Shown here piece after piece: positions 6,318 through 8,564 of a DNA stretch of 64,000 nucleotides (the stretch's first letter is position 1; each line of letters opens with the position of its first letter). Origin of the DNA: an uncultured cyanobacterium (lineage in GTDB: Bacteria > Cyanobacteriota > Cyanobacteriia > Cyanobacteriales > FACHB-T130); NCBI GenBank assembly GCA_936920195.1, contig CAKZHE010000098.1, forward strand, positions 1-64,000, in the 5' to 3' direction. The position numbers and the translations under genes are program-made. The notes under the pieces were generated by a model that saw only the letters and a program-made list of their open reading frames with translations, was not told the origin of the DNA and ran no database searches.

Positions 6318-8564
6318 CTATTTACCTGCACTGACTAAGGAGCCGATACTGAAGGCTGAGGTTCCTAGGGATTTGGGAGTGCTGACGGTCGGTTTTGCCT
6401 TCGGGGGCTGGGGTGAGGGAAAATCGGTATAGCGGCTGGTTTTATTTGTCCACATAAAGTTCCCCGCAATCCAGATCTCCAATCTTTTGATATATGCAAG
6501 GCATTCTTCGCGGGTATTTGGGTCTAGGTTGAGCGCATCAAAGAGGTTTGGTAGCTCGCCAACGATGTGGTGAAATTCCTGGAGTCGAGCGGTCAAAAGA
6601 TTGTTGACAATGTTGACCGATTCCTGTAGAGGACAGTCAAGAAATCTCTTGATGACTAACACGCTATTGTGGATTCCGCCTTCAAATTCCATTTCTTTCC
6701 GGTAGGAAACAATGTCGTTGGATAAACCGATCCAATCAAGGGTGATATGGTTGAGGGATTGGACTTGTCGGCTGGAGAGAAATTCTGGCGGGACAGCTTC
6801 GCTGATGTCGTATTGAGCAAGGGCGATCGTGATCTCCCCAGCAGCAGTCTGACGGCGCATCTCAACATAGTCCACTGGTTCGGGGACTCGATCTTGGACG
6901 ACATTGCTAATTTCCCACCATTCCGCGTTAACGTAGTTTTGCATATGATTAGCAAATTTTTGCCGCCATTCCAAGGGCAGATGGGAGGCAGTGCGAGGCC
7001 AGAGATCGACCAACGCCCTTTCTAAGGGGTTGGTTGGTGTAGGGGGAGGAGAGAGATCCACTGGCATGAAGGTGGGGATGCGGGTGATGAATTCTTTGGC
7101 TCCCACTAGATCGCGAGGGCGCTTATATCTTTCATGGAAGTAGTCATCCTCGAAGAACATCCAAACGCACCAGTCGCCTACCAGTTCCAGTTGCATAATG
7201 TTCATATCTGGATTGGTGATGGCGGTGAAGAAACCAAGATCTGTGGAGTCGAATCGGTGTTCATCCCAGATGCTGAGGTTGAGCGGATCTTCTACAGGGC
7301 TGATCAGTCCCATGGCATAAGCCCATGCCTTGATATGCACTCGAACTGCATCCAGATGGGGGCTGACCTGGGCGGTGAAGGGCATATAGTAGTTGGGGAT
7401 GTCAAAGGTGTAGGTGAATTCATCTTTGACTTTCTCCGGTGTCTTGGGTCCCCCTGGACGGTTGAGATCCCTAGGGAAATCGAAAAGCCGAGCGAGGGAA
7501 GTTCCCAAGCCTGTGGGTCCGATGACAAATCGCTCGGCAATCCGAGAATTTACTGTGTCGTTTTTCTTCGTGTAGCGGCTGGATTTCAGATGCCACTCCT
7601 GACAACCGGATTGCCAGTCCTGAAGTCCTTTGATATAGAGGAGAACGTTGGTCTGTTCTACGGGGTCGATGCCGTACTCGGCAAATAGTAGGGGGAGTTC
7701 GGTAATGGCGGTATTCTCGAACTGATGTAAGCGGGAGGTGCGGAGATCGTTGGTGACGTTAGCGGCTTCCTGGGGATTGACATTCAAGAATTTTTCTAGG
7801 ACTAAGACGCAGTTGGAATTTTCCCCTTCGTCTTCTACTTCTCTCTGGTAGGAGAATAAATCGTTGCAGAGATGTCCAACATCGGAAAATGTGGCTTTCA
7901 GTACCTGCATTGGTCGAGTGGCGGCAATTCTAGCCGGAACTTCGACAAATACGGCGTGTTCGATCAAATCGGCTGACCAGGGTGCGCCTCCTACCTTGCG
8001 CCGCATCTCGATGTATTCGATGGGGTTGGCAATCCGATTTTGGTTGATGTTGATCAGTTCCCAGATGGACTCGTCCATGAGGTGCTTGGTACTTTCGGCG
8101 AATCGCATCCGCCATTCGGGAGATTTGGTAAAGGCGGTGCGAAACCAGAGGTTGGACAAGCCGCGCTCGACTGGATTGGTGGGAGCAGGAGGAACTTCGG
8201 TGGGGAAGATGGGCATGAAGGCGCGCAACCGGAGGAGGTATGCCTTTGCCCCGGCGATATCTTGGGTGCGTTTATAGATCTCTAGAAAGTGATCGTCAAA
8301 GAAGAATACCCAAACATACCAATCGGTGATCAGGTCAAGCTCTGTGGCTGGGGCATCGGGATGGGTATAGGCGCAAAGCAGGGCGTAGTCGTGGGCATCG
8401 AAGGTGCGCTCGTCCCAGATCGGGGAACCGTTGGCTTCCTCTTGGGAACCGAGTATGCCCATCTCGTAGGCCCAAGCCTTGGAATGGATGCGGGCGGCTT
8501 CGAGGTGGGGGTTGAGACGTGCCGGCCAAGGCATATAAAAGTCTGGGAGTTCAAAAGGTGGCAT
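6318..8564 (-). CDS. Second two-domain terpene cyclase, geosmin-synthase paralogue
   Basis: 748 residues from ATG 8564; an ATG at 8588 would add eight residues, but 8564 aligns with the geoA start and shares the upstream AGCAGGT..ACxC motif. The N-domain is close to that of GeoA: DDHFLE at 90-95, NDLFSYQRE at 234-242 and a nearly unchanged GGAPWSADL region. The C-domain has diverged: FFEDDYFHE (DD 473-474) replaces [17 protein letters not shown] replaces FGSDLTMS, and WTNKTSRY replaces WHKSVDRY, while NDIVSYRKE (616-624) is kept. It should still make a germacradienol-type intermediate, but the final product may not be geosmin. It carries [12 protein letters not shown] (349-360) and [12 protein letters not shown] (732-743), like GeoA. 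First gene of the terpene-encapsulin locus. Confidence 0.88.

Follow-up and report, generated by a model that had tools for sequence, protein, structure and literature searches.

The gene that we call PAR, located near the start of the window (the whole stretch of 64,000 nucleotides analysed here, from an uncultured cyanobacterium), encodes a two-domain geosmin-synthase-like protein of mosaic ancestry. Its first half is closest to that of the canonical geosmin synthase (GEO) of the same cluster, whereas its second half, judged by sequence comparison, is a separate lineage. Our preferred reading, in which we place middling confidence, is that PAR would be a mosaic sesquiterpene synthase and a second cargo of the family 2B encapsulin shell encoded alongside it. 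According to this reading, its N-domain, copied from that of the local GEO, would ionise and cyclise farnesyl diphosphate to germacradienol. The germacradienol would then be passed to the C-domain, which represents a third lineage within the geosmin-synthase superfamily and is attached in the linker just after the sequence GPTGLGTS, and be converted to a product other than geosmin. PAR would thus probably yield a different volatile, most likely in the same protein shell as GEO.

The genes of the cluster lie within 8.6 kb of the start of the contig, on the minus strand, and are transcribed in the order PAR, EncA, EncB, and GEO (Table 1). PAR and GEO both consist of two tandem class I terpene synthase domains. 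The shell proteins EncA and EncB are 74% identical to each other and both exceed the encap_f2b cut-off of 400 bits. The NCBIfam model NF041168 (f2_encap_cargo3), which describes encapsulin-associated geosmin-type cyclases, has a curated cut-off of 1200 bits; the two GEO proteins considered here (1214 and 1230 bits) score above it, whereas PAR (1019) and its orthologue (1053) fall below. A cyanobacterial cluster made up of geoA followed by two 'cnb' genes is already known (PMC7251104). By the shell model applied here, these 'cnb' genes are family 2B encapsulins (cf. PMC8346489), and PAR is an extra element relative to that cluster. The first-pass annotation of this DNA made no connection between the PAR gene and the two shell genes. 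Elsewhere in the genome of the window, neither a further encapsulin nor a third two-domain copy was found, and a single-domain synthase is present on another contig (C258).

Table 1. Features of the PAR cluster, with positions counted along the window
Feature	Positions	Strand	Basis or remark
PAR, two-domain geosmin-synthase-like paralogue, 748 aa	6318..8564	(-)	Terpene_syn_C_2 twice; NCBIfam f2_encap_cargo3 1019 bits, cut-off 1200
PAR N-terminal class I domain, germacradienol-synthase type	7569..8555	(-)	closest PDB match 5dz2/5dw7
GPTGLGTS, inter-domain linker, proposed encapsulin cargo-loading motif	7497..7520	(-)	consensus in PMC8346489
PAR C-terminal class I domain (PARC), assigned to a separate lineage	6420..7406	(-)	identity, trees, AU tests, C/N ratio, fold model
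EDDYFHE, Asp-rich metal motif	7131..7151	(-)	[A/G]DDY[F/Y]P in geosmin C-domains
NDIVSYRKE, second metal motif	6693..6719	(-)	intact
WTNKTSRY	6429..6452	(-)	WH....RY in geosmin C-domains
SLGTSAFS, variant copy of the proposed cargo motif in the C-terminal tail	6336..6371	(-)	
EncA, family 2B encapsulin shell protein with cNMP-binding domain	4777..6186	(-)	NF041163, 773 bits
EncB, second family 2B encapsulin	2780..4183	(-)	765 bits
GEO, canonical geosmin synthase	449..2737	(-)	f2_encap_cargo3 1214 bits, above cut-off

Related inverted-repeat elements lie upstream of PAR (8722-8971) and between EncA and EncB (4370-4628), with a partial copy downstream of GEO (128-340). Their ends read CTAGGCTGTTGACTTTG / CAAAGTCAACAGCCTAG, and they look like small non-autonomous mobile elements. 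The cluster of the window, which is not beside crtE, is flanked and interrupted by these elements, and this may explain its different gene order.

The reading frame of PAR opens with an ATG and is free of frameshifts. A TTG at 8588 also lies in the open frame, and the orthologue begins at the equivalent ATG. The only orthologue found belongs to Microcoleus sp. CAWBG506 (locus L005, the same gene as in genome G601, contig C34) and is 81% identical; there, PAR lies 16 bases upstream of its own GEO, followed by EncA and EncB. Between both orthologues, dN/dS is 0.02-0.03 for the N-domain and 0.05-0.07 for the C-domain, comparable with GEO, even though dS is saturated and the values are rough. These figures point to purifying selection on both domains and give no indication of relaxed decay. 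A pseudogene was ruled out by the open frame, the intact metal motifs, and the purifying selection.

The N-domain is of the germacradienol type, placed inside that clade, with intact metal motifs. It had been described in the first-pass annotation as nearly that of GeoA; the likeness holds, at 80.9% identity to GEO (about 81% to cyanobacterial GeoA), and 'nearly' is generous. In GeoA, the N-domain converts farnesyl diphosphate to germacradienol, and the C-domain converts germacradienol to geosmin and acetone (PMC10881772). Given this chemistry, and since the orthologue keeps 105 out of 105 near-invariant N-specific residues, germacradienol would be the likely first product of PAR. This is less certain for the copy in the window, where 95 of these residues are kept and 10 are lost. 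Examples of such changes, absent from the orthologue, are HLRND to HLCND and SGGHEWH to SGCQEWH.

The ancestry of the two halves was followed in a maximum-likelihood tree of 88 domains, where they take conflicting positions. The PAR N-domains are sister to the GEO N-domains of the same two genomes (support 100/96), whereas the C-domain of PAR belongs neither to the geosmin C-domain clade (100/96) nor to the N-domain clade (99/99) nor to the single-domain synthases (100/100), a placement that is unchanged once the distant outgroup is removed. In AU tests, forcing the PAR C-domain to that of GEO was 78 log units worse (p=0.0015), and forcing it into the true geosmin C-domain clade was 19 log units worse (p=0.0067). 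Grouping inside the geosmin clade had been named in the first-pass annotation as an outcome that would speak against it; trees and tests place the domain outside. The same annotation spoke of an altered C-domain, and the change is real but understated, the domain being more divergent than claimed. It shares 43.2% identity with the GEO C-domain, and its mean identity is 40% to C-domains and 40% to N-domains, whereas geosmin C-domains average 56% to that of GEO. It is, as far as such comparisons tell, a separate lineage roughly equidistant from the N- and C-domains of geosmin synthases. The conflicting placements, together with the AU rejections, make PAR a domain mosaic rather than a slightly altered GeoA, a candidate that was ruled out by the AU tests and by the ratio of C-domain to N-domain divergence. 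This ratio is 6.4 between PAR and GEO in the window and 9.5 in the Microcoleus locus, against 1.48 +/- 0.48 (maximum 3.56) in 406 geosmin-type pairs; between PAR and its orthologue, it is a normal 1.66.

The position of the change also fits an exchange. DNA identity between PAR and GEO is about 70-84% and drops to 38-52% at the linker, directly after the common GPTGLGTS, past which the linker is unrelated to those of geosmin synthases. We read this as a C-domain swapped in within the linker or close to it. As regards origin, the chief alternative, which is compatible with any proposed function, involves no domain exchange: GEO would simply have been duplicated to give PAR, and the C-domain of PAR would then have changed rapidly in a brief burst. 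It would agree with the somewhat C-like character of the domain, which keeps 16 out of 31 C-specific invariants where N-domains have 8-9, and with the direct adjacency of PAR and GEO in the Microcoleus locus; moreover, with only two members, the long branch of the PAR C-domain cannot be broken up. Such a burst would nonetheless have had to raise the C/N rate to 4-6 times its usual value and to end, with the rate fully back to normal, before the orthologues split; it is also disfavoured by the AU tests and has the unrelated linker against it. We consider it possible, but clearly the less probable origin. As for the source of the swapped domain, a foreign GC-rich insert was rejected: GC content is 50% in the C-domain and 53% in the N-domain of the window (40 and 44% in the orthologue), a composition that offers no hint of recent import from a foreign source. 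A sister relationship with a divergent two-domain lineage (L137-L140) was also discarded, the two being separated by the tree, although they have some residues in common (IGL[ST]NDI, KEME, and the RY after the Asp motif). At third codon positions, the N-domains of PAR and GEO from the Microcoleus locus (L005:8016-11300) are 66% alike, against 56% for the two GEO genes, hinting at gene conversion between neighbours.

The search for a PAR-type C-domain donor in cyanobacteria covered 386 genomes of the phylum, 391 of the order, and 30 of Microcoleus, and yielded none beyond G601; 296 Actinomycetota yielded none either. In a species-wide contig scan, only L005 appeared among the best 80 whole-protein matches, where a PAR-type C-domain carried by another N-domain could escape, and no match to PAR was obtained from further members of the family to which the window belongs. 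The PAR gene is thus rare in the sampled genomes of phylum, order, and genus. A literature search turned up no description of a comparable geosmin-synthase paralogue; geosmin genes are reported in the genome paper on Microcoleus, where the passages found do not describe the PAR paralogue. For odour monitoring, geoA primers directed at the N-domain could mistake PAR for a geosmin gene.

The C-domain of PAR has the DDxxx(D/E) motif, NSE triad, and alpha fold of a class I domain. It is confidently predicted to adopt the terpene-synthase fold (AF2 model with pLDDT 91.6; TM 0.92 to 5dz2). The GEO C-domain likewise matches 5dz2, so the fold alone does not discriminate function. Fold and metal motifs are also shared with single-domain bacterial sesquiterpene synthases (isoafricanol, 4-epi-cubebol, T-muurolol, and avermitilol synthases), from which the PAR C-domain is set apart by an identity of 22-30% to those sampled and by its separate clade (100/100).

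What distinguishes this domain from that of GeoA, besides its lower identity and its place in the tree, is the loss of residues that geosmin C-domains rarely change. In 97 of these domains, the Pro after the Asp motif is conserved in 100% and the His of WH in 99%, and both are missing from PAR, which has DDYFHE for DDY[F/Y]P and WT for WH. These two replacements had been pointed out in the first-pass annotation and are real; their presence in an independent genome (L005 / G601) means that they are neither chance nor sequencing error. Altogether, there are 14 columns with at least 97% conservation in the set at which PAR and its orthologue both deviate, including the Thr and Tyr before the Asp motif, the Pro after it, the Phe-Gly of MRRKTFG, the Glu of EGEIHN, and the His of WH. 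Seven near-invariant geosmin-type residues are lost within motif regions, and the signature TY[AG]DDY[FY]P, MRRKTFG, WH..RY is absent. It is accordingly very improbable that PAR still yields geosmin through a diverged route. Even though it belongs to the same superfamily and cluster and has a germacradienol-type N-domain, the residues listed above are gone, its C-domain lies outside the geosmin clade, and a true GEO is present in the same cluster.

The loss of the geosmin signature, with the metal site kept, argues for catalysis with a different outcome. A catalytically dead or merely structural C-domain, with PAR simply releasing germacradienol (and germacrene D), would account for the seven missing residues, and geosmin synthase expressed in E. 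coli already releases germacradienol (PMC7192455; PMC7251104). We regard this as improbable, since the metal motifs are intact, 48 out of 52 invariants common to N- and C-domains are kept, and dN/dS matches the low level of geosmin C-domains (0.05-0.07 and 0.05, respectively). Somewhat less improbable, but still unlikely, is a C-domain acting as a class I cyclase in its own right and ionising a prenyl diphosphate unaided, so that PAR would make two unrelated terpenes with no relay between domains. The acid of DDYFHE, matching the position found in N-domains (DDHFLE) where geosmin C-domains have a Pro nearby and no acid, the intact NSE triad, and the MRR and RY of the window copy would suit such an activity. 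Contrary to it, the domain has about twice as many C-specific signature residues as N-domains have, and the orthologue (L005:8016-10277) shows TRGY at the site of the RY pair, the displaced Arg arguing against a strict need for diphosphate binding. From these features, we would rank a relay to a new product first, an independent second cyclase next, and a silent C-domain last. The first-pass annotation had proposed germacradienol or a different volatile; a non-geosmin product would be the better reading, given a C-domain outside the geosmin clade, and the sequence does not choose between these two.

Geosmin synthase C-domains perform a chemically odd retro-Prins fragmentation. Sharing the first half of these enzymes and differing in the second, PAR offers a natural comparison for the residues of the geosmin-making C-domain, through a branch that was previously unstudied.

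Encapsulation of PAR would rest on its location and its motifs. Geosmin-synthase-like cyclases carry a cargo motif in the linker and in the tail, for which a loading role has been suggested (PMC8346489). Like GeoA from Streptomyces coelicolor (N-domain structures 5dz2/5dw7), PAR has two class I domains with GLGTS motifs at both sites, which are retained in its orthologue, and it is encoded beside 2B shell genes; we therefore infer that it would be encapsulated in the family 2B shell. The cluster resembles the family 2B encapsulin systems with terpene cyclase cargo (PMC8346489; f2_encap_cargo3, encap_f2b) in having two 2B shell genes with cNMP domains beside a two-domain cyclase with GPTGLGTS motifs, and differs from them in having two distinct cargo genes of this kind in one cluster, one of them scoring below the cargo cut-off.

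In Microcoleus-type genomes, the cargo gene lies upstream of EncA-EncB, and a crtE-like prenyl synthase gene is next to it in divergent orientation. The cargo position holds a canonical geoA in G354 and G525, where the DNA examined extends to the first shell gene; in L005 it holds PAR together with geoA, and in L196 a divergent two-domain synthase. The same divergent synthase lies beside the crtE-like gene in L137, where the DNA examined ends before any shell gene. The fourth arrangement is a hybrid gene at the encapsulin locus in a genome of the genus Microcoleus (L198:4317-6107, minus strand; G039 C93; also L097 and L141). It starts with the first 107 residues of geoA, 90% identical to GEO, runs in frame into a GC-rich (58-71%) actinomycete-like single-domain terpene synthase, whose closest match in a plasmid collection is from Streptomyces clavuligerus (50.5%), and ends in a tail with three copies of GLGTSA motifs; EncA and EncB come next. 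The junction has an in-frame ATG preceded by AGGAGG, and the imported synthase might thus be translated from its own start. These four arrangements suggest that cargo has been exchanged repeatedly while the shell locus stayed fixed. If general, this would show how encapsulins gain new enzymes and would make loading motifs testable through natural variants. More tentatively, and with rather more doubt than belief, one shell might hold two germacradienol-forming enzymes, GEO leading to geosmin and PAR to a new derivative, at a locus that acts as a cargo socket through recombination near the loading motifs, with PAR and the G039 hybrid as cases.

The divergent two-domain lineage itself (L137, L138, L196 (L139), and L197 (L140)), the second such lineage in cyanobacteria, forms with each of its domains the sister group of all true geosmin synthases. 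Its C-domain metal motifs are weakened, with DG for DD in three out of four members, and two encapsulins lie downstream in L196 and L197.
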